Shown: piece by piece, positions 8,170-35,235 of the stretch
Layout: each line of letters opens with the position of its first letter
Position numbering within the stretch: position 1 is the stretch's first letter
DNA from: Prevotella sp.
GTDB taxonomy: Bacteria > Bacteroidota > Bacteroidia > Bacteroidales > Bacteroidaceae
Direction of reading: 5' to 3'
Length of the DNA: 56,049 nt
Assembly: GCA_017443345.1 (NCBI GenBank)
Contig: JAFSNR010000002.1
Location: 1 to 56,049 of the forward strand
Made by a program: the position numbers and the translations under genes
Notes under the pieces: model-generated
Seen by the model: the letters and a program-made list of their open reading frames with translations, nothing else
Told to the model about the DNA's origin: nothing
Database searches by the model: none

Positions 8170-8201
8170 TTTGGTTTTCTGCTCACTTAATCGTACCTTT
8201 G
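8170..8201 (+). promoter_or_regulatory. rsmA promoter
   Basis: TTTG (8170-8173) and TACCTTTG (8194-8201) lie 24 bp apart. Only 5 nt separate the -7 box from the ATG at 8207, implying a leaderless or nearly leaderless mRNA. Confidence 0.8.
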
Positions 8202-8206
8202 CAGCC

Positions 8207-9013
8207 ATGAAGCAAGTAAGACCAAAGAAAAATCTGGGTCAGCATTTCCTGACTGATCTGAACATCGCCAAACAGATCGCCGATACAGTGGACGCCTGTC
8301 CTGAACTTCCCGTTCTGGAAGTTGGCCCGGGTATGGGTGTGATGACCCAGTTCCTCGTGGAGAAACCTCGCCCCTTTAAGGTTGTGGAGATCGATAGGGA
8401 GAGTGTGGAGTATTTGCAAGAACATTTTCCTCGTCTTTCTGACAACATCATCAGTGGCGATTTCCTCCGTATGGATCTTCGTGAGGTGTTCAATGGTCAG
8501 CAGTTTGTCCTGACAGGAAACTATCCCTATGATATTTCCTCGCAGATTTTCTTCAAGATGCTTGATAATAAGGATCTGATTCCCTGTTGCACGGGTATGA
8601 TCCAGCATGAGGTGGCTGTGCGTATGGCCTCGCAGCCTGGCAATAAGCAGTATGGTATCCTCTCTGTCCTGATTCAGGCATGGTATCATGTGGAGTATCT
8701 CTTTATGGTGGAGCCAGGTGTATTCAATCCGCCTCCCAAGGTCAAGAGTGCTGTAATCCGTATGACGCGTAACGATGTGACGGATCTTGGCTGCGATGAA
8801 CAGTTGTTCAGGCGAGTGGTCAAGACCGTATTCAATCAGCGTCGGAAAATGCTGCGAGTCTCCTTGCGCCAGATCTTTAATGGCGAGCATCTGGCTTCTC
8901 AAGAATTCTTCGAGGACGAGATGATGACACGTCGTCCAGAGCAGCTTTCGATTCCTGAGTTTGTAGAACTGACAAATAAGGTCGAAAAAGAGCTGTTTGC
9001 GAGCACAATTTGA
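8207..9013 (+). CDS. rsmA: 16S rRNA dimethyladenosine transferase (RsmA/KsgA)
   Basis: The 268-residue enzyme dimethylates the two adjacent adenines of the 3'-terminal hairpin of 16S rRNA using S-adenosylmethionine. Motifs seen: KKNLGQHFLTD at the N-terminus, the SAM-binding VLEVGPGMG (about 45-55), the acidic VVEIDRE strand end, and the catalytic GNYPYDISS (NxPY motif, about 105). The C-terminal helical domain contains the RRKMLRVSL segment. The frame is open 12 codons further upstream, but those overlap the promoter, so ATG 8207 is chosen. Length and motifs are normal for the family. Confidence 0.95.
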   Translation: MKQVRPKKNLGQHFLTDLNIAKQIADTVDACPELPVLEVGPGMGVMTQFLVEKPRPFKVVEIDRESVEYLQEHFPRLSDNIISGDFLRMDLREVFNGQQFVLTGNYPYDISSQIFFKMLDNKDLIPCCTGMIQHEVAVRMASQPGNKQYGILSVLIQAWYHVEYLFMVEPGVFNPPPKVKSAVIRMTRNDVTDLGCDEQLFRRVVKTVFNQRRKMLRVSLRQIFNGEHLASQEFFEDEMMTRRPEQLSIPEFVELTNKVEKELFASTI

Positions 9014-9084
9014 CTGTGTTCGCACACAACGGATTGATATACATCAAAAGAAACCCTATTTTTTGCTAAAAAGTGTAGTATTCC

Positions 9085-19145: not shown

Positions 19146-20180
19146 TTAAATCAATTGTGGGAGGAAACACGAAATGACTAGTACTACAATACCCACGACG
19201 AGGACGGTAATGGTCTTCTGTGAACACCCCTTCCACTCTTTCAGGATGATGCCCCAGACGTTAGAGAATACCACATTGAGCGCCATCAGAATACAGAATG
19301 CCAATGTGGTAAGCGTAGGTGATTCCGTCAGGAAACCCTTGCCTAATGACAGTCCGAAGAACTGCGAATACCAGAGTGCACCAGCCAACAGGCAGAACAG
19401 AAGGTTGTTACCCCATACTGCAGTTTTCTTATAGTCGCCCCAGGTCTTATTGACTTGGTTCTGGTAGAAACAGTAGATGGCGTTGGTGATGAATCCTCCA
19501 AAGGTCACGAGCAGGGTAGCAGGCAGGGTACGGAACATCGGATCAGTCAGTTCGCCGAAGTTGATGCCCTTTCCAAACTCCAGACCTACGTTGAAGCAGC
19601 CGCTCATAAATCCTGCAAGCAAGGCAATAGCCAGTCCTTTAGGGAAATTGAAGTCCTTGACTGCCGCTTTCTTCTCCTCTTCTGAGAGCGAGGCTGCTTT
19701 CATACTTCCAGCTACACCAATGATGGCGATACCAATCAGTGTGACCACTACTCCTAGAATCACAGCAAACGTCAATGACTCCAGTGCATTGAGTTCAGGG
19801 AAGAAAAAGTTGAGCAGTACAGGTCCCATGATGGTTCCCAGTCCTGCACAGGTACCCAAGGCAATGGACTGTCCGAGGGCTACACCTAGATAACGCATTG
19901 AGAGTCCGAAGGTCAGACCACCCACACCCCAGAGTACACCAAAGAAGATGGTCATCCAGATGTTGAATGACTGTTCTGCGGTGAACAATTCAAAGAGGGA
20001 ATGCCCTGCTGGCACAGCCAGCAGAGCACCCAGGAAAGGTAAGATCAGCCAGGCGAACACACCCTGCACAATCCAGTAGCTCTCCCACGACCAATCCTTG
20101 ATCTTATTGATAGGTACGTAGCAGCTGCTCTGGCAGAAGGCGCCAATGGCAATGATCAGTAATCCTAAAACAATCTCCAT
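19146..20180 (-). CDS. rhaT: L-rhamnose-proton symporter RhaT
   Basis: The 344-residue inner-membrane permease has ten hydrophobic helices. Its N-terminus (GAFCQSSCYVPINKIKDWSWESYW) and its FGLSMRYLGVALGQSIALG segment are characteristic of RhaT. It imports L-rhamnose with protons. Its ATG overlaps the rhaA stop codon as TAATG, so translation is probably coupled, and rhaD follows after 19 nt. Confidence 0.93.
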   Translation of the reverse strand: MEIVLGLLIIAIGAFCQSSCYVPINKIKDWSWESYWIVQGVFAWLILPFLGALLAVPAGHSLFELFTAEQSFNIWMTIFFGVLWGVGGLTFGLSMRYLGVALGQSIALGTCAGLGTIMGPVLLNFFFPELNALESLTFAVILGVVVTLIGIAIIGVAGSMKAASLSEEEKKAAVKDFNFPKGLAIALLAGFMSGCFNVGLEFGKGINFGELTDPMFRTLPATLLVTFGGFITNAIYCFYQNQVNKTWGDYKKTAVWGNNLLFCLLAGALWYSQFFGLSLGKGFLTESPTLTTLAFCILMALNVVFSNVWGIILKEWKGCSQKTITVLVVGIVVLVISCFLPQLI

Positions 20181-21430
20181 TATCTCTTAGAAGTTACCTC
20201 TTTTTCGTATTTCTGAATGGCTGCAATGTACTCCTCACCTACAGGAACATTGTTCTTCAGGTTGAAGTAATCGAATACAGCACCGAATGGCATCGACTTG
20301 GCCTCTTCCATGAGGGCGAGACGCTCGAAGTTCTGCCCCTGGTCCTCATACTCACGCAGTTTGGCCTTTGGCTCGAGCAGTGCCTGCAGGATACACTTCT
20401 GAGTAGCACGTGTACCTACAAGGTAGGCACCGATACGATTGATGGATGCATCGAAATAGTCGAGGCCAACGTGAGCACGATCCAATGCATCGCTGCGAAC
20501 CAACTCCTTGAACAGGTCGAGGGTCTGGTCGTTCATGATGGTTACATGATCAGAGTCCCAACGAACTGGGCGTGATACATGGAGCATCAGCTCAGGAACG
20601 TACATCAACAAGGTAGAAACGAAGTCTGAAACGTTCTCAGTCGGCTCATAGTGACCAGTATCGAGGGTGAACATCTGTTTGCGGGTAGCACAGTAGGCTG
20701 TGTAGAAGTCGTGTGAACCAACGGTGTAGCTCTCCAGTCCGATACCAAACAGCTTAGCCTCGAAACAGTTCTTGACACCATCGAGTTTCTCCTCCATGAT
20801 CTCATCGAGTGAGGCAGCGAGAATCTCGCGATACTTCTTGCGCTGTACGGGCATATCCTTGCTTCCGTCGTGTACCCAGATATTCATGATACAGGGATCA
20901 TTCTGAGCCTTACCCATCGCATCAGCAATACGGCGGCAACGCTTGGTGTGCTCAATCCAGAAATCACGGATGCCTTTGTCAGGATTACTCAGCGTCAGCT
21001 CACCACTTTTGGGATGAGAGAAGGAAGTAGAATTGAAGTCGAGTTTCATGTTGTTCTCCTTGGCCCAGTCAATCCAACTCTGGAAGTGACTAACCTCTAC
21101 CTGGTCGCGATCCACGAACTTGCCTCCGAAATCGCCATAAATCTCATGGAGATTCAGACGGTGATTACCAGCGATAAGGGTCTTCACGAACTCGATATCC
21201 TTGCGAACCTCGTCAATGTTACGGGCACGACCAGGATAGTTACCTGTGGTCTGGATACCACCACTGAGGGCATCGTTGCGCTCGAAGCCTACTACATCAT
21301 CTGTCTGCCAGCAGTGCAGTGAGATCTGCTGTTTCTCCAGCTGCTCAATCACTTTGTCAGTGTCAACACCAATGGCTGCATAGCGCTCTTTCGCTACAGC
21401 ATAAGCTTTTTCAATCAGTTCTGCTTTCAT
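20180..21430 (-). CDS. rhaA: L-rhamnose isomerase
   Basis: The 416-residue enzyme interconverts L-rhamnose and L-rhamnulose in the cytosol using divalent metal ions. It has the expected length (E. coli 419), with SLHCWQTDDVVGFE near the N-terminus, NYPGRARN, the metal-site region LNLHEIYGDFGG and the later MFTLDTGHYEPTENVSDF and SRPVRWDSDHV motifs. It is the second gene of the rha operon, 24 nt after rhaB. Confidence 0.95.
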   Translation of the reverse strand: MKAELIEKAYAVAKERYAAIGVDTDKVIEQLEKQQISLHCWQTDDVVGFERNDALSGGIQTTGNYPGRARNIDEVRKDIEFVKTLIAGNHRLNLHEIYGDFGGKFVDRDQVEVSHFQSWIDWAKENNMKLDFNSTSFSHPKSGELTLSNPDKGIRDFWIEHTKRCRRIADAMGKAQNDPCIMNIWVHDGSKDMPVQRKKYREILAASLDEIMEEKLDGVKNCFEAKLFGIGLESYTVGSHDFYTAYCATRKQMFTLDTGHYEPTENVSDFVSTLLMYVPELMLHVSRPVRWDSDHVTIMNDQTLDLFKELVRSDALDRAHVGLDYFDASINRIGAYLVGTRATQKCILQALLEPKAKLREYEDQGQNFERLALMEEAKSMPFGAVFDYFNLKNNVPVGEEYIAAIQKYEKEVTSKR

Positions 21431-21454
21431 AATTCGTTTGTTTTTAATTATATG

Positions 21455-22936
21455 TTATTTGTTTGTTATTCTCAGATATTTCTCAAAGGCCTGATCCCAA
21501 GCAGCTTTCTCTGTCGGCTCATACTTTACGAGCTCCAATGAGTTGGCAATGATCTGACGCATTTCCCAGATGTCCTTGACCAGTCCGGCAGCCTTGGCTT
21601 GAAGCATGATGTTGCCAATGGCAGTACCCTCCTGAGGACCAGCCAAAACGGTAGTACCGATAGAATTGGCTGTAAACTGGTTCAGGTATTTGTTCAAACT
21701 GCCGCCACCAATGATGTGCAGTACGTTGATATCAAAGCTGGCAAACTCCTTGAGCCACTCAAACACCTGGCGATAACGTAGGGCCAACGAGTCGAAGATG
21801 CATCTGCAGATCTCTGCAGGTGTCTCAGGTACAGGTTGGTTTGTCTGTTGGCAATAGGTTTGGATAGCACCAATCATCGATGAGGGATTAGCAAATATCG
21901 CATCATCGGGATTGATGAGGCTTCTGAAAGCCTCCACCTGCATGGCTGAACCTTGTAACTCCGGATGAGACAGTTTCCTGACTTCTTCTGGCCACTCCAG
22001 ACGACAACGCTCGTAGAGCCACATACCGCAGATGTTCTTCAGGAATCTTGTCGTGCCTTCGATACCACCTTCGTTGGTAAAATTACGCTCGTAGCTCAAA
22101 TCGTTGATGATGGCATCTTTCGTCTCGATACCCATCAGACTCCATGTGCCACTTGAGAGATAGGCGAATTGCTCATTCTTGGCAGGAACAGCTGCAACAG
22201 CCGATCCAGTGTCATGCCCTGCTACAGCAATGACAGGTACAGGACCTAAGCCTGTCATCCTCTGCACTTCGTCAGTCAGCACACCAATTAAAGTGCCGGG
22301 ATTCACCATCTTGCCAAACATGGAACGTGTCAGTCCCAGTGAGGCCAACAGACGCTCATCGAGTTGCTTTGTCCTGGGATCAAGTAACTCCGAGGTTGAG
22401 GCGATGGTATATTCACAGACCTCATTGCCTGTAAGCATCCAACTCAGGGCATCGGGCACAAAGAGGATTTTCTTTGCATGTTTCAAGGCCGCATTGCCCT
22501 CACGTCCCATGGCATAGAGTTGGAAGATGGAGTTGAAATTCATCAACTGGATGCCAGTCACATCATAAACCTCTCGTTTCGAAATGACGTGTTTCAGATA
22601 ATCATCCATCGCGTCAAATGTAATAGGATCGCGATATGCGCGAGGGTTCCTTAATATGGCGTTGTCCTCACCGATCATGACGAAGTCTACACCCCAGGTG
22701 TCGATACCAATCGATGTGATCTTCAATCCTCTCTTGGCCACCTCCTTGAGACCCTTGATAATCTCGAAGTAGAGGGCGTAAATGTCCCAATAGAAATGTC
22801 CACCTTGTTCGATGAGGTTGTTGGGGAAGCGTGTGACCTCCTCCAGACCGAACTGTCCGTCTTCAATGTTTCCGATGATGGTGCGTCCACTGGTGGCTCC
22901 CAAGTCAACGGCGAAGAAATAGCTTTTATTATTCAT
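21455..22936 (-). CDS. rhaB: Rhamnulokinase
   Basis: The 493-residue FGGY-family sugar kinase phosphorylates L-rhamnulose at C1. It shows the N-terminal phosphate loop FFAVDLGATSGRTI, the substrate-site SIGIDTWGVDFVM, the hinge AVAGHDTGSAVAAVP and the C-terminal adenosine motif HIIGGGSLNKYLNQF. The frame is open to 22969, but the upstream codons run into the promoter; ATG 22936 fits the family N-terminus. It is the first gene of the rhaB-A-T-D operon. In Bacteroides an AraC-type RhaR controls this operon; the only AraC gene here is at 24494, beyond nhaD. Confidence 0.94.
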   Translation of the reverse strand: MNNKSYFFAVDLGATSGRTIIGNIEDGQFGLEEVTRFPNNLIEQGGHFYWDIYALYFEIIKGLKEVAKRGLKITSIGIDTWGVDFVMIGEDNAILRNPRAYRDPITFDAMDDYLKHVISKREVYDVTGIQLMNFNSIFQLYAMGREGNAALKHAKKILFVPDALSWMLTGNEVCEYTIASTSELLDPRTKQLDERLLASLGLTRSMFGKMVNPGTLIGVLTDEVQRMTGLGPVPVIAVAGHDTGSAVAAVPAKNEQFAYLSSGTWSLMGIETKDAIINDLSYERNFTNEGGIEGTTRFLKNICGMWLYERCRLEWPEEVRKLSHPELQGSAMQVEAFRSLINPDDAIFANPSSMIGAIQTYCQQTNQPVPETPAEICRCIFDSLALRYRQVFEWLKEFASFDINVLHIIGGGSLNKYLNQFTANSIGTTVLAGPQEGTAIGNIMLQAKAAGLVKDIWEMRQIIANSLELVKYEPTEKAAWDQAFEKYLRITNK

Positions 22937-22966
22937 TTTAATTCCTTTGATTAGCAGATTCGACGG

Positions 22967-22974
22967 CAAAGGTA
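22967..22974 (-). promoter_or_regulatory. -7 element of the rha operon promoter
   Basis: TACCTTTG (minus, 22974-22967) lies 30 nt before the rhaB ATG. A clear TTTG at -33 is missing, as expected for a promoter that needs an activator. Confidence 0.65.
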
Positions 22975-24459: not shown

Positions 24460-24461
24460 AC

Positions 24462-24499
24462 AAATAAATATCCCCGCCACTTGGCGGGGATATTTATTT
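24462..24499. terminator. Bidirectional terminator whose stem contains the araC-type gene stop codon
   Basis: An 18-bp stem (24462-24479 with 24482-24499, arm AAATAAATATCCCCGCCA) ends nhaD on the plus strand. On the minus strand the TAA of the AraC-family gene (24496-24494) lies within the stem. Confidence 0.85.
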
Positions 24500-25363
24500 G
24501 GCTTTGATGTCGCTGGGCTTAAGCCCCATCTTGGCTTTGAACTTGGCGGAGAAATAGTCTGGGCTCTCGAAGTTGAGGCGGTAGGCAATCTCCTTGATAC
24601 TGTAGTCAGTGGTGGTAAGGAGCTCTTTAGCGCGTTGCAGGCGCAGCTCCTGCTGGTAAGTGGAAGGTGACAGACCAGTATATTCCTTAAAGAGTTTGCG
24701 GAAATTACTGTAGCTGACTCCCAGATCCTCAGCAACCTGTTGGATGGTAAGGTCTGCCTCCAGTGATTCGCGGATGCGTAGACGGGCCCGATTGATCATG
24801 TCAACTTGCTGCTGGTTCTTACTGAACTCCTTGTTACGTTCCAGGGAGTACATGATACCGATGAGGTGGTTGACGATACCAGCCATTACTTGCTGGGAGT
24901 AGGCTGCCTCTTCGATAGCTGCCTCGTAAGCCCGCTTGTAGAGCATCTCGATAACCGATGAGTAACCAACGTGGTAGATAGGTTTCTCTGGCGAGAGGAA
25001 GCCGGCTTTGACACGATCGTCCATATTACGACCTTTGAATCCTATCCAGTAACTTTTCCAACCAGTATGTTCCATAGGGTGATAGCTGTGCCATTCGCCA
25101 GGGAAGAGGAGAAACATATCACCAGCTTTTAGTTTCCGACGCGAGCAGTTGGCACTTTGGAACCAACCTTCCCCCTCAGGGTTGTATAGCAATTGGTACT
25201 CATTGAGGATACGGCCCTTCTCAACACTGAAGTAATAGCCATCGGCATGTCCTCTCGTGGGATAGGGATCGCCAGGGGCAATTTCCTCATGACCGATAGT
25301 GCTGACGGTAAGTCCCCAAAGGGCATCGCGTTCGTTGGCCAACAAGTATTTACTGATCTGCAT
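24494..25363 (-). CDS. AraC-family transcriptional regulator
   Basis: The 289-residue protein has an N-terminal cupin-like ligand domain (about 1-150; FLLFPGEWHSYHP is its conserved core) and a C-terminal pair of helix-turn-helix motifs: LTIQQVAEDLGVSYSNFRKLFKEY and YSIKEIAYRLNFESPDYFSAKFK. It has no receiver domain. It starts 34 nt after the stop of sensor kinase 1 and looks like the last gene of the five-gene sensor operon. It could regulate targets of that operon or act as the rhamnose regulator (RhaR-like) for the nearby rha genes; position supports the first and general type the second. ATG 25363 is chosen because the longer frame overlaps the kinase gene. Confidence 0.85.
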   Translation of the reverse strand: MQISKYLLANERDALWGLTVSTIGHEEIAPGDPYPTRGHADGYYFSVEKGRILNEYQLLYNPEGEGWFQSANCSRRKLKAGDMFLLFPGEWHSYHPMEHTGWKSYWIGFKGRNMDDRVKAGFLSPEKPIYHVGYSSVIEMLYKRAYEAAIEEAAYSQQVMAGIVNHLIGIMYSLERNKEFSKNQQQVDMINRARLRIRESLEADLTIQQVAEDLGVSYSNFRKLFKEYTGLSPSTYQQELRLQRAKELLTTTDYSIKEIAYRLNFESPDYFSAKFKAKMGLKPSDIKAK

Positions 25364-25397
25364 AGTTCTGTTTGGTAAATGAATAGTTAGAATTGTG

Positions 25398-28175
25398 TTA
25401 TGTCTTGTGCTCACAAGGAATCCAGATCCAGAAGGTGGATCCAGTGCCTTCTCCCTCGGAGGTGACACCAATCTGGCCGTTGCAGTGATCAGCGATGGCC
25501 TTGCAGATACTGAGGCCAAGGCCTGTACCCTGCACAAAGTCGTTGAGTTTGACAAAACGTTCGAATACGCTGGCTTGCTTCTCCTTAGGGATACCGGCAC
25601 CTGTGTCTTCGCAATAGAAGTAGAGTCCGTTGGTTTCCTCACTGCCATCCTTAGGGATACGTTCCTCTTCGCGATAGCCCACCTTGATATGACCTTCATG
25701 CGTATACTTCACGGCGTTGGTGACAAAATTAGTGAGCAATTGTTGGATGCGTCCTTTGTCAAGGTAGGTGAGATAACTCTGGTAAGGATTAACCTTGATA
25801 AACTCTACGCCAGGTTCCTGGACACGTTGCTCGAGTGTCTGACAGATGTCATCAAAGGCCTTGGCGATGTCGACCTCTTCTGGGAGGATGGCTAGTGCCT
25901 GACCCATGCTTGAGGCCTCAAGGATATCGTTGATAAGACGCATGAGCATATCGCAGTTGTTGCGGATAATGCGGATAAACTGCAGACGCTCCTCGTTGGT
26001 CTCCACAACAGGCAGGAGGTCTGAGAATCCTACAATCGCATTGAGTGGCGTACGAATCTCGTGGGTCATATTGGCGAGGAAGGCACTCTTCATCTTGCCT
26101 GAATTCTCGGCACGCTCAGTCTCTTCTTTCAGTCTCTCTTGGGCAATCATCAGGGAAGTGATGTTACGTGCGAGACCAAAGTAATGCGTCAGATGACCAT
26201 CGGCATCGAACTGTGGAACACCACTGATGGCATACCATACCTGATGACGCTCGAGCGGTGTATAGAGATAATGGTGTACAGCCTCGTAAGGGGTATGCGA
26301 GGCGACGATACGTCTGACATGCTCTACAGCAGCACCTCGTTCATCCTCAATGACGCCCTCGAAGAACTCATTCAGGGTTTCCTTATACTGTTCCTCGCGG
26401 ATACTACGTGAGAAGGAAATCTCATCAGTATCGGGGAAGTAACTCCATATGAACATCTGGCTGTTGTCGAGCAGGTAATGGAGCTGCTTCTCGTATTGTT
26501 CAATGGCCTCGTTGGCACTGATGATCTGTTTGTCGTGCTGACGCTGATTGAGATAGATGTTACGCTCAGCTGTCATGTCGCGGGCTGTCACGAGGTAGTA
26601 CTGAAGTACGTCGTTGTCGTCTACAATGGGACGTATTTTGAACTCGATATACTTGTCGAGGTTCCAGTCAGGATAGTACATGTGTTGACACACATAGAAA
26701 TTATCACGGCTCTCTGGATCGACCTGTCCTTTCAGCAAAGCTGCAGCAAAGAGGTTCGTCTTGCTGAAGAATTCGAAACCTTTCCCCTCAAGTTCGCAGA
26801 GTTGGCGCATATTATCGTTGGCATCCATAAAATTACCATCTTTGTCATAGTACGACATGGCAATCAGATTGATGTCGAACATCTGGCGGTATTTGGTGCC
26901 CATTTCCTGAGTAAGACGTTCTTCGCTGATCTCCTGTGTGAGATCCTTGAACGTGCCGATGAGATAGCGAGGCTTGCCATCCAGATGCTCAGTGACGACA
27001 TGCCCTTCAAGGAAACGCCAGTCTGGGGTATCGTCAGTACCCACATTCCAGCGACGACGTATGGTCCTGATGTCTTTCTTACCTTCAGTCATCTCACGGA
27101 TCTCTTCGTGGAAGGCGGAGCGTTCTTCCATGTGGATATTCGACAGATAGCCATCCATGGTGATACCATTCTGAGGCAGAAGTGAGCCATGGAGGTTACG
27201 CAACTGGTCTGTCAGGATGTCGTACTCCACAACGTAATAGTTACCCATGTTAAGTGCCTGACTCATCATCTGGTTGAGGTCAAGTGTCTTGCGCACAGCC
27301 ATTTTCACACGAGCGCGGATCAGTCGACCCAACAGTAAGGAAACAATCAGCAGGATGACGACACCAGCCAGAATGATCAGTGCGATAGGTGAGGTGTCGT
27401 TGTGTATTCGCTCAGGATGGAAGAACTTGTCTCGGATACGTTCGAGTTCGCCTGACTGTTCGAGACGGGCATAGCCATCGTCGATAGCGTCGATGAGTTC
27501 TTTGTCGTAGCCGATGATACGCAACTCTCCGGCAGGGATGTCAATATCGTCAAGGACAATGTTGTCTATATCGAGTTCCTTGATTTTTAGGCTGAGGGGG
27601 ATCTCGCCCCAGGCTGCATACTTATACTTGCCGTTACGAATACCTGTCAGGGCCTCTCTGGGGTTGTGGTATTCAACGGTGAATTGATCACCTTCTCGCT
27701 CTGAGATGCGCAGGGCCACGTAGTCGTTCTTCTTGATACATAGCGTATCCTCTGGCCCCAGATCACTGAGTTTGGAGATGGCTTTGGTCCCCTTCAGGCG
27801 TGCCGTCTTCACGTTGTAGTAGTTGATCATGTTCTGTGTCATGACATAGGGTCGCTCATTATAGATGAAGGCGAGAGCGTGGATGAGGTCAGCTTGACGC
27901 GTGTTGAAGGTCTCAACAGCCTGATACCACTCCTTCATTTCGAAGCGATGGGGAATCTTTAGCTTGGTGAGGATGGTGTGGAGCACAGTGACATTATAGC
28001 CATCAGCATCACCTTTGTCGTTGCGGTACTCGTAGGGTGGGAACTCCCAGTCGCAGACAATGACAAGGGGACGATCCTCGGTATATTCGCGTATGAAGAG
28101 CGCCCCTGCAGGCAAAATGTTGCAGAAGGCTGTCAGGAGACTGATGAGTAGAAGGGAGTATATTCTTTTCGTCAT
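25398..28175 (-). CDS. Sensor kinase 1: periplasmic SBP-type sensor, PAS domains, canonical histidine kinase
   Basis: The 925-residue protein has a signal/anchor (1-25), a periplasmic solute-binding domain of the SBP_bac_3 type (about 33-255; PLVIVCDWEFPPYEYRN start), a membrane helix (about 265-285), three PAS-like modules (about 300-690), a HisKA domain with phospho-acceptor His705 in NMTHEIRTPLN, and a complete ATPase domain (N box NAVKYT, G1 EDTGAG, G2 GTGLGLS). The layout resembles BvgS-type sensors but lacks receiver and Hpt domains. Its cytosolic part is a paralogue of sensor kinase 3. It follows kinase 2 by 12 nt and precedes the AraC gene by 34 nt. Confidence 0.92.
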   Translation of the reverse strand: MTKRIYSLLLISLLTAFCNILPAGALFIREYTEDRPLVIVCDWEFPPYEYRNDKGDADGYNVTVLHTILTKLKIPHRFEMKEWYQAVETFNTRQADLIHALAFIYNERPYVMTQNMINYYNVKTARLKGTKAISKLSDLGPEDTLCIKKNDYVALRISEREGDQFTVEYHNPREALTGIRNGKYKYAAWGEIPLSLKIKELDIDNIVLDDIDIPAGELRIIGYDKELIDAIDDGYARLEQSGELERIRDKFFHPERIHNDTSPIALIILAGVVILLIVSLLLGRLIRARVKMAVRKTLDLNQMMSQALNMGNYYVVEYDILTDQLRNLHGSLLPQNGITMDGYLSNIHMEERSAFHEEIREMTEGKKDIRTIRRRWNVGTDDTPDWRFLEGHVVTEHLDGKPRYLIGTFKDLTQEISEERLTQEMGTKYRQMFDINLIAMSYYDKDGNFMDANDNMRQLCELEGKGFEFFSKTNLFAAALLKGQVDPESRDNFYVCQHMYYPDWNLDKYIEFKIRPIVDDNDVLQYYLVTARDMTAERNIYLNQRQHDKQIISANEAIEQYEKQLHYLLDNSQMFIWSYFPDTDEISFSRSIREEQYKETLNEFFEGVIEDERGAAVEHVRRIVASHTPYEAVHHYLYTPLERHQVWYAISGVPQFDADGHLTHYFGLARNITSLMIAQERLKEETERAENSGKMKSAFLANMTHEIRTPLNAIVGFSDLLPVVETNEERLQFIRIIRNNCDMLMRLINDILEASSMGQALAILPEEVDIAKAFDDICQTLEQRVQEPGVEFIKVNPYQSYLTYLDKGRIQQLLTNFVTNAVKYTHEGHIKVGYREEERIPKDGSEETNGLYFYCEDTGAGIPKEKQASVFERFVKLNDFVQGTGLGLSICKAIADHCNGQIGVTSEGEGTGSTFWIWIPCEHKT

Positions 28176-28187
28176 GTCGTATCTCTA

Positions 28188-30956
28188 TTATATGCGTTCC
28201 ATTTCAATCAGTTTGCAGGGTAGGCTAATCCAGACAACGGTACCCTTTCCTTCCTCGGACTTGAGCTGGATCTTTCCCCCCATGTACTCGATGAGCTCAT
28301 GGCAGATGCTCAGACCCAGACCTGCGCCTGTGCTGGCGCCTGTCACGAAGCGTTCGAAGATGTGCTCGACAGCCTCCTTGGGGATGCCTGAACCTGTATC
28401 CTCAACAGAGATCATTAACTGGTCACCCATATAGTCGTAACGTACTTCTACAGTACCCTTGCTCGTGTGCTGCACGGCATTAGTGATGACCTTGTCAATG
28501 ACCATCGACAGGTTGTTATCATCGACCTCGATAACCATGCGCTTATAGGGATTCCGCACGATATACTTGACATCAGGTTGCTTCAGGTTGTTCCATACGG
28601 CCTCACAACGACTGACGAAGATAGTCGCAAAGTCTATGGGCTTGGGAGCGATGGTAATCATGCCTGCGTCCAGACGTGAAAGGAAGAGAATGTCGTTGAT
28701 GAGCTTGAGCAATGATGAGGAACTGCGCTTGATCTCGTCGATGAAGACGGCCTCATCCTCAGGAGAATGTTCTAACTCGAAGAGTTCTGAGAATCCTACT
28801 ACCGAATTGAGTGGGGTACGGATCTCGTAACTCATGTTACGGAGGAAGGCATTCTTGATGACCTCCACCTCCTGTGCACGGACAGTCTCTTTGGCCAGCT
28901 TGGCCTCGATGGCCTTCAGTTCACTGATGTCACGACACATGCCGAAATATTCCTTGACCTTACCTTGATGGTAGAGGGGAATAAAATGGAATTGCAAGTA
29001 GAGGGGTTGTCCGTTCTGACGGATGATGCACTTGACTTCACCATACAGTGAACCAGTTGCCAGATTCTCCATCTTGTTGAGTATGCGTAAAGCTTGTTTC
29101 TTCGACTCCTCAGCTACGAGTGAGAGAGCTCTGGTCTGAGTGAGGGCATAGCGGGCATGTCCGATCTCACTGTAAATGGTCAGTGTGTGGGAGTCGAGAT
29201 GATAGGTGGCCATACTGATACCTCCTACGCGAAGCACATAGTCGATGTTCTTGACATAATGGGTCATCTCGTTGTTCATCTGTTGTAACTGTCGGGTGTT
29301 GTCCTTCAGTTGGCGATAGGCATGAACCGTTTCTGTGACATCACGACCTGTACCAAAGATTCCCAACAATTCGTTCTGTTTGCCTCGGACAGGCATCAGT
29401 TGGAGCTCATAGTACATCTCATCGCGCTTCAGGAGTTTGTTGAGTGGTCGCTTATCTTCTTTCGTGTAGATTTGTGTCAGGTAGAGATAATCCATATTAT
29501 CAAGGGTGAAATCGTCTAAACCCAAGACGTCTTTGACGTGGATCTTCATCTCGCGAATCACTTCTATGGGGGTGCCCAGAGCATTGAGCGCTTTTTGGTT
29601 CATCTCTGTGATATAACCGTCTTGATCATAGGCAACCATATCGATCATGGCCGAATTGAAGATGGACTGGTAGCGCAGCATCGTGTCCTTCACCTTGCGA
29701 TGACGGGCGATATCCTCTGTGATGTCATTGCGCGAGCAGATAATGACAGAGGGCTTCTTCTGTTTGTCGCGACGCAGTACTGAGAGGGTCAGGTTGAAGT
29801 CCCTTGGGTCATCTGCATGATTGATGTCCCAAACAAGGAGGTTGATGGTGACGCTCTGGACCTCTTCTTGGATGACCTGCTTGAGGGCATTGGTCAGTTT
29901 ATTGAAACCATCGGCCTTATAGCGTTGCGAGAATTCCAGTGAGGTATAGGTGCGTTCAGGACGACCATGCTGGTCCATCACAGTAAAGATCTGCGATGCT
30001 ACGTCATAGGTCCAGAAACTCACATGACTGGTCTCCAGAATAAGCGTCAGTCGGTCGTTGCTCTTTCGGATCTCCTTGGTCATCTTCCGTTCGCGTACCT
30101 TATATATAATATAATAGAGCAAGAAGAAAAAGGCAACGATGGTCAGGAGGTAGATGACCTGCCAAATCCAGGCCGGGATACCCGAGTCCTTGCGTTCTGG
30201 GTAGAACCACTTGTTCTGGATGGGTGTCAGTCGGTCATTCGCACGTAGCATGTTATAGACACTGTCCATCTGTGCCAGCAGATGATGATCGTGTGAGAAG
30301 AATTTATACTCACCGTAGGGCAGGTCGATTGGCATGAGTTGGAGGTGCTCTGTCTGGTATTTCTGCATGAGCCACTTCAGTGACATGGTATTCCAAAGGA
30401 TGATACCTTCATTATCTGTACTGACCTTGAGAATAGCGTCTCTCATGTCGTCGTAGGCTTCAATCTGTACATTGATTTTGTGATCGAGGAGGTAGTGGTG
30501 ACTGAAACTGCCCTCATGTACTATAACACGATGGTTGTTCAGGTCATTGGCGTCATGGATCTCTATGCGCTTGCTTTTCGGCACGACGATACTGTGCGTG
30601 AAGAGCTGCACAATCGACTGGCCATAGGAGGAGTTGCTTCTGGCAAAGTCTGCATCCATGCGCAGCATGAGGTCCGACTGCCTATTCTTCAAGTCTGACT
30701 GAGCCTCGAGTGTGGGCTTCAGTTTGATGATGTAAGGAATGTCAAGTTCTTTAAAGATGAGCTTCAGCAGGTCGATGTTGTAGCCATCGGGCTCACCGTT
30801 TGCATTGAGGAACACGTAAGGCCAGAGATCCCAGGCATCCTCGTATATAAGAGGCCTGCTCTGGTTGTAGACAATGATGCTGTCCTGAGGTGCAGCCGAG
30901 CCAGTACCAGGCACCAGCAGCCCAATGACCAATATGATTCTATATATATTCTTCAT
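28188..30956 (-). CDS. Sensor kinase 2: SBP-type sensor with phospho-acceptor His replaced by Tyr
   Basis: The 922-residue protein has a signal peptide (1-22), an SBP_bac_3-like periplasmic domain (about 27-255), a membrane helix (about 265-290), PAS-like modules, a HisKA-like dimerisation domain and an ATPase domain. The H box reads NMSYEIRTPLN: Tyr710 (codon TAC at 28829-28827) stands where His is required, so autophosphorylation of this chain at the usual site is not possible. N box (TNAVQHT), G1 (EDTGSG) and G2 (GAGLGLS) are intact, so ATP binding should be preserved. It is a paralogue of sensor kinase 4. It may work by phosphorylating a partner subunit or as a non-catalytic sensor. Confidence 0.92.
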   Translation of the reverse strand: MKNIYRIILVIGLLVPGTGSAAPQDSIIVYNQSRPLIYEDAWDLWPYVFLNANGEPDGYNIDLLKLIFKELDIPYIIKLKPTLEAQSDLKNRQSDLMLRMDADFARSNSSYGQSIVQLFTHSIVVPKSKRIEIHDANDLNNHRVIVHEGSFSHHYLLDHKINVQIEAYDDMRDAILKVSTDNEGIILWNTMSLKWLMQKYQTEHLQLMPIDLPYGEYKFFSHDHHLLAQMDSVYNMLRANDRLTPIQNKWFYPERKDSGIPAWIWQVIYLLTIVAFFFLLYYIIYKVRERKMTKEIRKSNDRLTLILETSHVSFWTYDVASQIFTVMDQHGRPERTYTSLEFSQRYKADGFNKLTNALKQVIQEEVQSVTINLLVWDINHADDPRDFNLTLSVLRRDKQKKPSVIICSRNDITEDIARHRKVKDTMLRYQSIFNSAMIDMVAYDQDGYITEMNQKALNALGTPIEVIREMKIHVKDVLGLDDFTLDNMDYLYLTQIYTKEDKRPLNKLLKRDEMYYELQLMPVRGKQNELLGIFGTGRDVTETVHAYRQLKDNTRQLQQMNNEMTHYVKNIDYVLRVGGISMATYHLDSHTLTIYSEIGHARYALTQTRALSLVAEESKKQALRILNKMENLATGSLYGEVKCIIRQNGQPLYLQFHFIPLYHQGKVKEYFGMCRDISELKAIEAKLAKETVRAQEVEVIKNAFLRNMSYEIRTPLNSVVGFSELFELEHSPEDEAVFIDEIKRSSSSLLKLINDILFLSRLDAGMITIAPKPIDFATIFVSRCEAVWNNLKQPDVKYIVRNPYKRMVIEVDDNNLSMVIDKVITNAVQHTSKGTVEVRYDYMGDQLMISVEDTGSGIPKEAVEHIFERFVTGASTGAGLGLSICHELIEYMGGKIQLKSEEGKGTVVWISLPCKLIEMERI

Positions 30957-30988
30957 TCTTCACTTTTCACTTTTCACTTTTCACTCCT
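30957..30988 (-). repeat. GTGAAAA repeat at the kinase 3/kinase 2 junction
   Basis: Three to four GTGAAAA units followed by GTGAGGA units (minus strand) fill the 24-nt gap and form the last codons of kinase 3 (ERSEE and the TGA stop). Confidence 0.7.
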
Positions 30989-33011
30989 CACTCCTCTCAC
31001 AGGGAATCCATATCCAGAAGGTGGAACCTGTGCCCTCGCCCTCTGAAGTCAGACCGATATCACCCTGACAACTGTTGGCAATGGCCTTGCAGATACTCAG
31101 GCCAAGACCTGTTCCCTGTACATAGTCATTCAGTTTCACAAATCGCTCAAACACCTTTGCCTGGTCTTCCTTAGGAATACCAGTGCCAGTATCTTCGCAG
31201 TACATGTATAGACCATTTCGACCTTCGCGTTGTTGGTATTCATAGCCTATCTTAATATGTCCCTGTTGGGTGTACTTGACTGCGTTGGTCACAAAGTTGG
31301 TCACCACCTGTTGCATACGCCCACTATCGATAGTGGTAACAAATGAGTCGTATGGGTTTTCTGAGATGAACTTCACCTCAGGGTTCTGCACGCGTTGGGC
31401 AAGGATAGTAGAGACATCTGCAAACACTTTGGCGAAGTCCACCTTTCTCGCAGTAATCTCTATACCTTCAGTCTCAAGCGACGAGACAGCCAGAATATCG
31501 TTTACCAGTCTGAGCAGCATGTCGCAGTTGTTCATGATAACGCGTATGATTTCTTGTTTCTCTTCAGTGGTCGACATCATGGGCAACACGTCTGAGAAGC
31601 CTACGATGGCGTTCAGTGGCGTACGGATCTCATGCGTCATATTTGCCATGAAGGTACTCTTGCGGAGACCCGACTGGTTGGCGCGTTCTGTCTCTTCCTT
31701 CAGACGCTCCTGTTTCTCGATGAGGTTAGTGACGTTGCGTACCACACCGTAGGTACCCATCATCATGCCGTTCTCGTCAAAGAATGGCACACTCTCAATG
31801 AAATTCCATTGTAATTCCTTTTTATCGTTGAAGAACGAACGCATATGGGTCAGGTCTGTTCGCTGCACACTGAAGTAGGTTTCGTATTCTCTCAGTCCCT
31901 GTTTGAACGGACTGTCCACGAAGTGGTCGATGAGCTCATCAAAGTTCAGACGCAACTCTGGACTGCTCATACTCTTATAGAAGGTACAGATTCGCTCGTT
32001 GATATTGATGCGGAAGAAACGCATGTCACAGTGCTCCATCAGGTACTGCAACTCGTTTTCATAGCGTTCGATGGCCTCGTTCTGCAGTCGGATACGCGCC
32101 TCGTTGCGTTTGTTCTCGAGATAGAGATCACGTTCCTGGGTGATGTCGCGGATGGAGAAGGTGATGAAGAAGAGTTCGCCCTTTTCATCATATACCGGGT
32201 GGAGGCGCATCTCTGTGTAGCAGTTCACACCTCGTTCGATAATCACACTCTTCGTACAGAAGTAGAGATCCTGGGCCTGGCGGTCATAGAGCACTTCTCT
32301 GAACGTGGGCATGTCGTAGATCGTGCTGTTGAAATAATAAGGGTCATTCTCAGTCTGGAAGTTCAGGATCTCGCGCATTTTCTTGTTGGCAGCAATCAGC
32401 TTGCCTTCTTTGTCGTAGAAAGCCAGTCCCACCAGACTTTGGTCGAAGATTTTCCGATAACGGTCAGTCATCTCCAGCTCCTGTTGTTCGCGAAGGATAC
32501 GTTCTGTTTCGTCTGTCAGTGTACAGAAAAAGTTGGTTGGGATCTTCAAAGCGGGATTGCTGTATTCTGCAATGCCGATATCGCGCATCCAGTGCCACTC
32601 TCCTTTGTGGGCCTTCATACTCCAGTCCCAGCGGATGAGGCATTCTGAGGTCTTGTCGCCTTTGATCAGGCGTCGTAGGGCTTCGGTATAGAGATGGCGG
32701 TCGTCAGGATGGATATACGCCAGACTTTCCTCATAGCCCATGCCTTCCTCGGGCAGGAAGTTACCATGCATGTTGCGGGCAAAGCGGTCCTGGAACGAGA
32801 GCTTTAGCACATAGTTGTTGCTGGCATTGAGGGTGTGCTGCATGATGGCCGACAGGTCCTTCACCTTTTCAGAATTTTTGCGGATGCGCAGGATGGTGAT
32901 ACGGTTGACCACCCAACCGATAATAAAGGCAATGAATGTCAGCAGTGTGATCGTCAGCGAGATGCTGTCGACGGAGGCACTGTTTTGTATGGTAAGGATC
33001 AGACTGTTCAT
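30981..33011 (-). CDS. Sensor kinase 3: membrane-anchored PAS histidine kinase, canonical
   Basis: The 676-residue protein has a single N-terminal membrane helix (about 18-40) and no periplasmic domain, then three PAS-like modules (about 50-435), HisKA with His460 in NMTHEIRTPLN, and a full ATPase domain (TNAVKYT, EDTGTG, GTGLGLS). It is closely related to the cytosolic part of sensor kinase 1, including the TGLGLSICKAIA and GEGTGSTFWIWIP stretches. It starts 9 nt after kinase 4, so the two are probably translated together. Its ligand input is unknown. Confidence 0.92.
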   Translation of the reverse strand: MNSLILTIQNSASVDSISLTITLLTFIAFIIGWVVNRITILRIRKNSEKVKDLSAIMQHTLNASNNYVLKLSFQDRFARNMHGNFLPEEGMGYEESLAYIHPDDRHLYTEALRRLIKGDKTSECLIRWDWSMKAHKGEWHWMRDIGIAEYSNPALKIPTNFFCTLTDETERILREQQELEMTDRYRKIFDQSLVGLAFYDKEGKLIAANKKMREILNFQTENDPYYFNSTIYDMPTFREVLYDRQAQDLYFCTKSVIIERGVNCYTEMRLHPVYDEKGELFFITFSIRDITQERDLYLENKRNEARIRLQNEAIERYENELQYLMEHCDMRFFRININERICTFYKSMSSPELRLNFDELIDHFVDSPFKQGLREYETYFSVQRTDLTHMRSFFNDKKELQWNFIESVPFFDENGMMMGTYGVVRNVTNLIEKQERLKEETERANQSGLRKSTFMANMTHEIRTPLNAIVGFSDVLPMMSTTEEKQEIIRVIMNNCDMLLRLVNDILAVSSLETEGIEITARKVDFAKVFADVSTILAQRVQNPEVKFISENPYDSFVTTIDSGRMQQVVTNFVTNAVKYTQQGHIKIGYEYQQREGRNGLYMYCEDTGTGIPKEDQAKVFERFVKLNDYVQGTGLGLSICKAIANSCQGDIGLTSEGEGTGSTFWIWIPCERSEE

Positions 33012-33020
33012 AAGGCACCA

Positions 33021-35171
33021 TTAAATAAGTTCTTGGACTTTTTTCTCCAATACGCCCATTTCACAGGGGATGGTCACAAAGAAGGTCGTGCCTTTGTCCC
33101 GTTCCGACTGTACTTCAATGCTACCGCCCATCTGTTCGATGAGTTCTTTCACAATGGGTAGGTCAAGCCCGGTTCCTTCTGCGTCGTTGTTGTCTTCATT
33201 GGCGAAACGGTTGAAGGCATTTTCCAGTTCTTGAGGTGACATGCCCTTGCTGGTATCATCAATAGTAATGTTCAGCTCCCCATGGCGATATTCGTATTTC
33301 GCCCTGACAGTGCCCTCCTTGGTGGTGGCACCTGAGTGGGTGCAGAGCTTTTGGATGACCATTCCCAGGTTCTGTTGGTCGATATTGACGAGCAGACGGT
33401 TGTAGGGATTATCCACTACAGCCTTGACGTTGGGTTGCAGATTGCTCCAGCCCATATAGCACCAACCGTCGAACAATAGGGCGAAGTCGCACTCTTGGTA
33501 GTTGTATTCAATCATACGGGCATCGAGTCGTGAGAGGAAGAGGATATCGTTAATCAGGGCCAGCAGTACACCGGTATTTTTCTTGATCTCCTCTGCGAAG
33601 ATAGGCTCATCCTCCTCGCTGTGTTCACTGTTGAAGAGTTCGGCAAAGCCGATGACAGCATTCAGTGGTGTACGCAGCTCGTGGCTCATGTTCAGGAGGA
33701 ACGTGTTCTTCAGACGCTCTTCCTCCTGGGCTTTCTCCGTCTCTTCCTGTAATCTGAGCTCGGTATAGGTCATTTCGGTTTCATTGCGACACATACCGAA
33801 ATAGTGGGTAATCTTTCCTTCGCTGTCAGTAATGGGCATCATGTTGAAGTTCAAGTAGACATGGCGTCCTTGATTGTCACGAATGATGGTACGGACGGTT
33901 TCTGAGAAAGTGCCAGGATGTAGACGGTCCATTCTGCAGAACAGACGTTCAGCCTTGGCATAGTCATCAGGGTGAACCATGATGAAGGCTCGCAGTTGGG
34001 GCAGCGTATATTCTGTGGCGTTCAGGTCGCTCGAGATGTCGAGGTTATGCGTGTCAGGATGATAGTTCACCATGCGCACATCACTCACCTTCAATGAGTA
34101 GTTGATGTTCTGGATATACTGTTGAATATCCTTGATACGGGATTCTATCAGTAGGCTGGTCTTCTTCTGCTGGTGGAATGAGTTCACCATGTCCGTGATG
34201 TTTCTTCCTGCCATCATGATACCGTTCAGCTTGCCATCCTTGTCTCTCAATAAAGTGGTGGTGCGCTCGAAGTAAATCTTGTCTCCGCCCCAGTCATGGG
34301 AAGCCAGTGAGCCTACGCGGTTATTGACATTCTTCAGGTCGACGATGCTCGAACTGGGCGTCGGGGTGTCTGAGGTCAGGTCAATGTCACGCATGGAAGG
34401 CCAGTCCGTATATTTGGGCTTCTTGGCGATCAGGGCCTTACGGTCTTTGATGAAATACGACTCACAGGCCTTGTCGTTGATGTCAAGCATGGTACCCTCA
34501 CCATCGAAATAGACCATGTCTACTAATGAGGAGTCGAAGAGGGTCTGGTATCTCAAGGCTGTACGCTTGGCTTCCTCCGCCCGTTGCTGCTCGTCGGTAA
34601 TGTCGCGTTGGGTTCCCAGCAGCTGCAGGGGGAATCCGCTCTTGCCCTTGCGTAATACCGTGATGGTAATCTCATAGATATGCTGGTAATCTTCCCCGCT
34701 TTCACTCTTGATAGGGGTACTCCTGACGATGATAGTCTCCGATGGCTTCATCCTCTCCCTCACCTTTGACATCACCTTCAACAATTCGGTAAAGTCATTT
34801 CGATCGTAGAATTGAGAGAACTCAAAGGGGGTATAGGTGGTCTCCGAGGTGCCTTGCTCTGCCACAATCTTATAGAGGTCGTGCTTGGCGTCGTAGGTCC
34901 AGGCTGCGGTTTTGTTAGAGGTCATGACGAGATTCAGCTGTGCAATGAGCTGTTTCCCCTGTTTGGTGACATCCCGTTCGCGGTAGTAAATCACACGGTT
35001 GAAAAAGATCATGACAAAGACGGAAATGAGGAAAGCCGCCACCAGATATGCGAGGATGTGATGGATATCCAGAATGGTTTCCATGTTCTCTTCCTGGGCC
35101 ATGACCGCCAAAGGGACTGTCAGGGCGATACAGAGTATGATTGACCTTTGCAGGTATGGTTTAGCACACAT
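33021..35171 (-). CDS. Sensor kinase 4: PAS kinase with intact His but degenerate ATP-binding domain
   Basis: The 716-residue protein has a signal-like helix (8-24) and a second membrane helix (about 41-60), PAS-like modules (about 70-470) and an H box NMSHELRTPLN with His497. The ATPase domain is recognisable but broken. The N-box Asn-Ala is His-Ser (THSGATT, His612), the G1 motif DTGxG is DTSKG, and G2 GLGLS is GLDLP. It should therefore accept phosphate but not bind ATP normally. It is a paralogue of sensor kinase 2, which has the reverse defect. It is the first gene of the operon, with a promoter at 35235-35204. Confidence 0.92.
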   Translation of the reverse strand: MCAKPYLQRSIILCIALTVPLAVMAQEENMETILDIHHILAYLVAAFLISVFVMIFFNRVIYYRERDVTKQGKQLIAQLNLVMTSNKTAAWTYDAKHDLYKIVAEQGTSETTYTPFEFSQFYDRNDFTELLKVMSKVRERMKPSETIIVRSTPIKSESGEDYQHIYEITITVLRKGKSGFPLQLLGTQRDITDEQQRAEEAKRTALRYQTLFDSSLVDMVYFDGEGTMLDINDKACESYFIKDRKALIAKKPKYTDWPSMRDIDLTSDTPTPSSSIVDLKNVNNRVGSLASHDWGGDKIYFERTTTLLRDKDGKLNGIMMAGRNITDMVNSFHQQKKTSLLIESRIKDIQQYIQNINYSLKVSDVRMVNYHPDTHNLDISSDLNATEYTLPQLRAFIMVHPDDYAKAERLFCRMDRLHPGTFSETVRTIIRDNQGRHVYLNFNMMPITDSEGKITHYFGMCRNETEMTYTELRLQEETEKAQEEERLKNTFLLNMSHELRTPLNAVIGFAELFNSEHSEEDEPIFAEEIKKNTGVLLALINDILFLSRLDARMIEYNYQECDFALLFDGWCYMGWSNLQPNVKAVVDNPYNRLLVNIDQQNLGMVIQKLCTHSGATTKEGTVRAKYEYRHGELNITIDDTSKGMSPQELENAFNRFANEDNNDAEGTGLDLPIVKELIEQMGGSIEVQSERDKGTTFFVTIPCEMGVLEKKVQELI

Positions 35172-35203
35172 AAATTGTCTAATAGAATGGTAGTAACCAC
35201 GCG

Positions 35204-35235
35204 CAAAGTTAAGGCTTTTTAGTTAAACCACCAAA
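35204..35235 (-). promoter_or_regulatory. Promoter of the sensor kinase operon
   Basis: TTTG (35235-35232, in AAATTTGGTGG) and TAACTTTG (35211-35204) on the minus strand are 24 bp apart; the ATG is 32 nt further. Confidence 0.8.

Follow-up and report, generated by a model that had tools for sequence, protein, structure and literature searches.

This analysis concerns a 56,049-nucleotide stretch of Prevotella sp. DNA (assembly GCA_017443345.1, contig JAFSNR010000002.1, here C75), called the window throughout, and a minus-strand operon within it that encodes four sensor histidine kinases (K4, K3, K2 and K1) followed by an AraC-family regulator (Table 1). The operon is real: gene calls agree with the initial annotation, which was made from the sequence alone, on five genes in this order with gaps of 9 nt (K4-K3), 24 nt (K3-K2), 12 nt (K2-K1) and 34 nt (K1-AraC). 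Pfam searches place HisKA, HATPase_c and PAS domains in all four kinases and the solute-binding protein (SBP) domain SBP_bac_3 in K2 and K1 only. The periplasmic domains of K1 and K2 match amino-acid-type solute-binding proteins (top match: sensor-protein domain 3h7m), and BvgS is among the PDB matches of the K2 sensor profile. Pfam recognized a receiver domain in none of the five operon proteins, an Hpt domain in none of K1-K4 (K2 and K4 included) and a helix-turn-helix (HTH) domain in none of K1-K4. A genome-wide receiver search placed none of its 28 matches on C75, and on this rests the statement that the window encodes no receiver.

Sequence comparison and box alignment bear out the first grouping of the kinases: K1 and K3 are paralogues that carry all catalytic boxes, and K2 and K4 are paralogues of a second type. 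K1 and K3, like the relatives grouped with them below as type A, can be classified as canonical HisKA kinases because they combine HisKA and HATPase_c domains with H, N, G1, F and G2 boxes. K2 has Tyr710 in place of the phospho-acceptor histidine and, as had been noted, a good ATP-binding domain (N box kept; G1, DTGSG; G2, GAGLGL). K4 keeps His497 and has lost the N-box asparagine, with a G1 box of DTSKG and a G2 box of GTGLDL. These K4 defects had also been described correctly except for G2, which was called destroyed; it carries a single substitution, third glycine to aspartate, that is typical of its class. A promoter match lies just upstream of K4, and a scan for sigma-70 sites gave a number no higher than in shuffled sequences.

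Table 1. Position of the operon genes and of other features of the window.
Feature	Position	Strand	Remarks
K4, type-B sensor, 716 aa, no periplasmic binding domain	33021..35171	-	hydrophobic N-terminus, PAS, HisKA, degenerate HATPase_c
K4 codon 497, His kept (Tyr in 70/80 of K4 class)	33681..33683	-	from alignment
K3, type-A canonical histidine kinase, 676 aa, His460, no periplasmic binding domain	30981..33011	-	adjacent partner of K4
K2, type-B sensor, 922 aa	28188..30956	-	SBP_bac_3, PAS, HisKA with Tyr710, intact-looking HATPase_c
K2 codon 710, Tyr at phospho-acceptor position	28827..28829	-	computed
K1, type-A canonical histidine kinase, 925 aa, His705, SBP_bac_3	25398..28175	-	adjacent partner of K2
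AraC-family regulator, 289 aa, AraC_binding and HTH_18	24494..25363	-	ATG at 25363
Bacteroidetes-type promoter match just upstream of K4	35204..35235	-	TTTG-20 nt-TAACTTTG; judged against the Bacteroidetes consensus
Terminator-like hairpin, 18-pair stem, separating the convergent AraC and NhaD genes	24461..24500	.	hairpin scan
Rhamnose genes: FGGY-family kinase, L-rhamnose isomerase, RhaT-like symporter	19146..22969	-	tracked by the AraC gene

The type-B/type-A pair

The unit of the operon is a pair in which a type-B sensor (K4 or K2) lies directly upstream of a type-A kinase (K3 or K1). A search of the window's own genome with K3 finds two further pairs. On contig C11 (L021), a B protein of 641 aa with tyrosine at the acceptor site is followed by a canonical A of 636 aa, and on contig C77 (L022) a B of 958 aa with glutamine is followed by a canonical A of 954 aa. 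K2 has a match in 26 of 60 genomes of the genus (threshold 1e-45); the match in G008 is weak (8.5e-55, one kinase), and with that genome counted as pair-lacking 25/60 bear pairs. In a sample of 121 genomes of the family (threshold 1e-62) only six have a match, four of the same genus and two of another (g14; genomes G101 and G122), whose B-A pairs (L185:3844-6300 and L186:5631-8123) have glutamine in B. A further 80 named loci (L067-L146; rumen Prevotella, Xylanibacter ruminicola and relatives) are the best 80 of 469 relatives. Residue counts from these 80 are biased, since the scan patterns included NM[SN][YFQ]EIRT and so favoured Y, F and Q.

Of the 113 loci that remain after filtering, 65 have exactly one of each kinase (B4, A3, B2 and A1), 20 have a single pair of SBP type, and five have a single pair without an SBP domain (no-SBP); the others are partial, doubled or ended by a contig edge. 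An SBP-type A stands alone in only two, one of which (L064) has a cut B upstream. The gap from B to A is at most 50 nt, overlaps counted, in 73/75 no-SBP pairs and 102/102 SBP pairs. In a neighbour survey of 114 loci with flanks of unequal length, rsgA lies upstream in divergent orientation in 68 and nhaD downstream in convergent orientation in 48, so most arrays occupy a common chromosomal site. The initial annotation had named the five-gene order in relatives as a check; there the linkage of the four kinases is conserved, but that to AraC is not. Larger arrays also occur: L044 is organized B-A-B-A-B-A, and L116 has an extra B and an A-B fusion. At L041 (7526-9976), the interval separating K3 from K2 contains two short frames (411 and 400 aa) that are relatives of K2 and K1 and perhaps remnants of an extra pair. 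No description of the Prevotella pairs was found among the literature matches listed (open-access literature).

To compare catalytic residues, 416 typed frames were reduced to 375 by removal of six duplicate loci, L023, frames shorter than 600 aa and frames running off contig ends. Type A has the acceptor histidine in 182/183 proteins, the exception being a frame cut short at L111, and all its boxes are present except in that frame and in a row with two unread (X) G2 residues. Type B lacks the histidine in 167/192 (Tyr 133, Phe 23, Gln 5), or in 165/190 if L065 and L066, whose rows are doubtful (H-box column '-' and L), are set aside. In SBP-type B (n = 112) the site holds Tyr in 63, Phe in 22, His in 16, Gln in five, Glu in two and other residues once each, while in no-SBP B (n = 80) it holds Tyr in 70, His in nine and Phe in one. 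The acceptor histidine of a canonical kinase is thus absent from K2 and most of type B, K4 with His497 being an exception. The residue-unbiased subset (the window, its genome and the genus loci from the K2 search) gives the same picture, with His in 49/49 type A and a non-His residue in 44/51 type B.

The two B classes differ in their ATP-binding residues. The N-box asparagine is kept in 100/112 SBP-type B proteins and lost in 67/80 of the no-SBP (K4) class, where the third G2 glycine is Asp in 66/80. The neighbours of the acceptor are held throughout type B (E+1 in 185/192, T+4 in 177/192, P+5 in 191/192), and the residues at H+7, +11 and +12 (N, G and F) are mostly common to A and B. Among 22 other kinase/receiver loci of the genome, 18 align with His at the acceptor site; of the rest, one has Glu in a weak alignment, one does not cover the site and two have no match. 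HisKA domains without the acceptor histidine made up about 0.9% of a published sample (722/76,471; PMC12632262). Tyrosine (TAT/TAC) and histidine (CAT/CAC) codons are a single transition apart. In nine loci from X. ruminicola and near relatives (L070-L075 and L077-L079), K2 has His, N and G1 intact and K4 of the same array lacks the phosphatase threonine (T+4 to Val), possibly one event in one clade. The loss of the histidine is thus conserved across a large family and is not a local error; 16/192 B proteins have normal H, N and G1.

Selection, descent and co-divergence

Type-B cores are under purifying selection. Summed over near relatives, the two B cores have ratios of nonsynonymous to synonymous substitution (dN/dS) of 0.076 and 0.069; the corresponding values of the A cores are 0.060 and 0.042. 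These values are rough, as synonymous divergence (dS) is often near or above 1; they come from 15 locus pairs, with 12 or 13 comparisons per class after exclusion of dS outside 0.05-2. The view that type-B proteins are duplicates in decay, merely passengers of the operon, is accordingly scarcely tenable and is rejected on dN/dS. Decay could account for the variety of residues at the acceptor site (Y, F, Q, E, G and S) and for the K4 gene of L030, which is split across three frames. However, B cores evolve at a dN/dS of about 0.07, near that of A, their frames are whole in most loci, tyrosine is retained by most of the K4 class, and SBP-type A is almost never found without B.

A tree of 108 of the 375 kinase cores (32 chosen loci and two outgroup rows; quick method with SH-aLRT support) has one branch (97*) that sets off all A and another (98*) that sets off all B. 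Within type A, the SBP forms are grouped by a branch (97*) and nested among the no-SBP forms; within type B it is the no-SBP forms that are grouped (92) and nested among the SBP forms. The separation of A from B, with a split by sensor type within each, indicates an early A/B split, as whole-pair copying would give. His-bearing B proteins are dispersed among the Tyr/Phe ones. The B-A pairing is old, conserved and selected for.

Co-divergence was measured as the partial correlation (r) of distances, controlled for RsgA and the other kinases, with 300 permutations. For the dimerization and histidine phosphotransfer (DHp) domain in 61 arrays, r is 0.46 for B4-A3 and 0.45 for B2-A1 (0/300 permutations each), compared with 0.16 for B4-B2, 0.02 for A3-B2, 0.26 for B4-A1 and 0.11 for A3-A1. 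Within-pair values are 0.44 and 0.57 in the 41 arrays of the window's class (across pairs, -0.22 to 0.34) and 0.86 and 0.60 in the 20 arrays of the C11 class (across pairs, -0.02 to 0.10). The catalytic and ATP-binding (CA) domain behaves similarly (0.37 to 0.70 within, -0.12 to 0.30 across). Over both domains and the three array sets, r is 0.37 to 0.86 between B and its adjacent A and -0.05 to 0.34 between B and the other B. For each B, co-divergence is greatest with the neighbouring A.

These results bear on the model of the initial annotation, in which K2 and K4 form a trans-phosphorylating heterodimer, K2 supplying ATP binding and K4 the histidine. The model suits the window, where K2 has a good ATP domain without the histidine and K4 the histidine without a good ATP domain, and it is consistent with the absence of any array in which both B proteins have His (0/74) and with a K4-K2 DHp correlation of 0.34 in the 41 K4/K3/K2/K1 arrays. 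However, among the 74 K4-class/K2-class combinations (Y/Y 36, Y/F 15, Y/H 12, H/Y 5, H/F 4, Y/Q 1, F/Y 1, H/H 0), 21 have one His and 53 have none, which leaves those 53 without an acceptor. The histidine is present in only 9/80 of the K4 class, and about 1.5 H/H combinations would be expected by chance, so their absence is not significant. Co-divergence is also stronger between each B and the A beside it than between the two B proteins, and the 25 loci with a single pair have no second B, although contig ends or the filters truncate some of them. That K2 and K4 are defective in opposite ways is a local state and not a general rule, and a K2/K4 trans-phosphorylating heterodimer is highly improbable.

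In-frame A-B fusion proteins occur at four loci (L037, L111, L116 and L117). L109 was rejected as a fifth: its K2 frame merely extends back through unrelated upstream sequence.

The AraC gene and a candidate output receiver

The AraC gene, regarded at first as part of the kinase system, follows the rhamnose operon. Among 62 loci whose downstream flank is 6 kb or longer, 13 have both AraC and rhamnose (rha) genes, 44 have neither, four have AraC only (L100, L101, L109 and L120) and one has rha genes only (L146); Fisher's p is 3.7e-9, uncorrected for shared ancestry. In 52 loci with shorter flanks the counts are 8, 37, 6 and 1, respectively. A five-gene sensing array with co-transcribed AraC as its output would fit the close spacing of AraC after SBP-type A (median gap 12 nt in 30 loci; at most 50 nt, overlaps counted, in 28). 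Set against this are the tracking of the rhamnose operon and the domains of the AraC protein, which has a ligand domain and, by Pfam, no receiver; the B. thetaiotaomicron rhamnose regulator RhaR (BT3768) is described as an AraC-family protein (PMC3878776). AraC as the output of such an array is therefore improbable. Judged by its AraC-family domains and its linkage to rhamnose genes, the AraC gene is probably the RhaR of the neighbouring rhamnose operon, and it most likely shares the kinase transcription unit by position only.

The output of the kinases would be a receiver encoded elsewhere. No receiver was recognized by eye among the 25 commonest neighbour families of the arrays (a domain search of all neighbours was not run). 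One of the genome's 28 receivers, an unlinked 118-aa single-domain protein (L028), was chosen after inspection of them all and matched 26/60 genus genomes at 1e-18. A short frame of this kind (48-100% identity) is present in 23/25 pair-bearing genomes and 0/35 others; it is missing from pair-bearing G021 (50% complete) and G034, and a match in G024 (38%) sits in a 5,959-aa frame and was left out of the count. The receiver adjoins genes for a major facilitator superfamily (MFS) sugar symporter and an arabinofuranosidase-like protein, the latter named by eye (L028:2852-4321 and 4504-5000), and a relative of one or the other adjoins it in 21 of the 23 loci L191-L213. A HisKA-HATPase-REC hybrid of 416 aa that has no sensor domain (L025:4449-5699, minus strand) is similarly distributed (24/25 versus 0/35); in most genomes it was recognized only from its receiver together with the frame length (373-460 aa, or 234 aa in G021).

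A control receiver, L027, is likewise confined to pair-bearing genomes (15/25 versus 0/35, 96-100% identity), which indicates that genus structure or shared transfer confounds receiver co-occurrence; a second control is found in 5/25 and 3/35. A one-gene MnmA tree of 59 genomes offers only three independent contrasts on starred branches, of which about two go the same way for the receiver and none the opposite way (three and none for the hybrid), too few for significance. In the family sample the receiver is present in the four pair-bearing genomes of the genus (G000 included) and absent from the three others of the genus. It is also absent, at 1e-20, from the pair-bearing other-genus genomes G101 and G122, and its relatives are present in genera without pairs. 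The L028 receiver is therefore the leading candidate for the output and only that, with ancestry or shared transfer a full alternative.

The control receiver is of interest in itself. It is a 121-aa single-domain protein on contig C11 (L027:2334-2699, plus strand), 96-100% identical in 15/60 genus genomes although the MnmA proteins of the other 14 share only 75-87% identity with that of the window's genome, which suggests recent transfer or extreme constraint. Elsewhere in the window, two neighbouring minus-strand genes (263-2074 and 2103-3914) each encode 603 aa without an NCBIfam match, and two opposite-strand open frames of 280 aa at 8171-9025 overlap almost completely.

Proposed role of the type-B sensors

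From the pairing, gene order, residue pattern, selection, tree and co-divergence described above, we infer with a probability of about 0.6 that type B is a pseudokinase that senses and controls the adjacent kinase A, through a heteromer, a shared receiver or both. Pseudokinase control, which the initial annotation had raised beside trans-phosphorylation, is supported by the loss of His from 167/192 type-B proteins and by purifying selection on their cores. The proposed model is as follows. The operon would consist of two pseudokinase-kinase sensor units, B-A B-A. The upstream proteins K4 and K2 would be pseudo-histidine kinases, built like their partners with an acceptor that is usually Tyr or Phe, those of the K4 class usually also deprived of ATP-binding residues, and the downstream K3 and K1 would be the catalytic kinases. 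Each B would read its own periplasmic or cytosolic signal and control A. The simplest route would be for B to join A in a heteromer through their common PAS-DHp build; B may also, or instead, bind the receiver of A and hold or dephosphorylate it, as the phosphatase threonine is kept in most B. A would hand its phosphate to a receiver encoded elsewhere, for which the co-occurring single-domain protein is the leading candidate.

The main rival to this model makes A the kinase and B a phosphatase or sink dedicated to the same receiver, so that an A-B complex would not be required. HisKA phosphatase activity is reported as possible without the histidine (PMC12632262; PMC3510030), and T+4 is kept as noted above. 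A and B also mostly share N, G and F at H+7, +11 and +12, positions altered to rewire the specificity of EnvZ (PMC2991266); however, these residues occur in other kinases of the genome as well (the hybrid at L025, and L023) and so are little informative. A pure phosphatase would have no use for E+1, a residue reported as needed for kinase activity only (PMC3510030), yet nearly all B proteins keep it; most of the K4 class has lost the N-box asparagine; and the nine K4 proteins of one group that have lost the threonine are nevertheless retained. PMC12632262 also argues against phosphatase activity as what pseudo-histidine kinases generally provide. On balance, this rival is rather unlikely.

Several observations weigh against control of A by an adjacent pseudokinase. 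The histidine is present in 25/192 B proteins, and as H, N and G1 are all intact in 16, B is not inert everywhere; E+1, of no use to a pure phosphatase, is retained in B. The L030 K4 gene is split although its A3 is whole. Across-pair correlations of B4-B2 and B4-A1 in the 61 arrays, and of K4-K2 in the 41, were likewise reached in 0/300 permutations. Whole-pair replacement or transfer can be the source of pair-specific co-divergence. The fusion proteins join A to the B of the following pair and not B to its own A, which suggests that assembly may exceed one pair.

Control of one kinase by another, or by a kinase-like protein, has precedents. RcsD of enterobacteria is kinase-like with a degenerate HisKA domain and acts beside the true kinase RcsC, but RcsD bears an Hpt domain and Pfam recognizes none in K2 or K4. 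RetS and GacS of Pseudomonas, which are encoded apart, resemble B and A more closely. RetS is described as a sensor that controls another kinase by heterodimer formation, although both are hybrid kinases (PMC12189002) and B and A have no receiver domain. In Corynebacterium, an inactive paralogue, ChrS, alters the signalling of active HrrS; native ChrS and HrrS heterodimerize in two-hybrid assays, but the ChrS pseudokinase arose from a laboratory frameshift and its truncated form gave no significant heterodimer signal (PMC9491836). K1 and K2 share a periplasmic SBP_bac_3 (venus-flytrap) sensor, PAS and HisKA with BvgS and EvgS, but K1-K4 have no C-terminal receiver or Hpt and occur as A/B pairs. 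Unlike the hybrid two-component systems (HTCS) of Bacteroidetes, the K1-K4 polypeptides have neither a receiver nor an AraC-type HTH.

DivL of Caulobacter is, with RetS, the nearest precedent. It is described as a Tyr550 pseudo-histidine kinase with PAS domains and a tyrosine conserved among homologues (PMC4211667) that works with a separate kinase, CckA, and a receiver, DivK (PMC4211667; PMC12189002). K2 likewise has a HisKA domain with Tyr at the acceptor site, PAS and its other boxes kept, and a conserved tyrosine is found in type B (133/192) and most strongly in the K4 class (70/80), K4 itself being an exception. Unlike DivL, which belongs to an alphaproteobacterial cell-cycle circuit, the Prevotella B proteins are encoded in tandem with A and multiplied as a pair, and those of the K2 class have periplasmic solute-binding sensors. 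DivL binds a phosphorylated single-domain receiver, and a single-domain receiver co-occurs with the Prevotella pairs. The likeness is one of features, and membership of the DivL family is not claimed.

The pairs may, in a more speculative and at present doubtful extension of the model, form an obligate heteromeric receptor, in which a catalytic and a pseudokinase subunit each have a sensor and the multiplied pairs converge on one unlinked single-domain receiver. If this is true, the B-A, B-A-B-A and six-gene arrays and the natural A-B fusions would represent multiplied receptor pairs, equivalent in bacteria to known pseudokinase-kinase receptors, and their circuit would be one like that of DivL and DivK, invented independently. 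The Tyr, Phe or Gln of the H box would be held by selection and at times switched to His by a one-base change. What is new here is the operonic, multiplied pairing and the size of the family: the pseudo-histidine kinases met in the literature are single cases such as DivL, whereas these proteins form a coherent family, most of them without the acceptor histidine and nearly all beside a canonical partner. Their natural Tyr, Phe, Gln and His variants and the fusions make the service of a pseudo-histidine kinase to its partner testable. Because the pairing is old, conserved and selected for, the 'broken' B sensor is probably a working part of the system.

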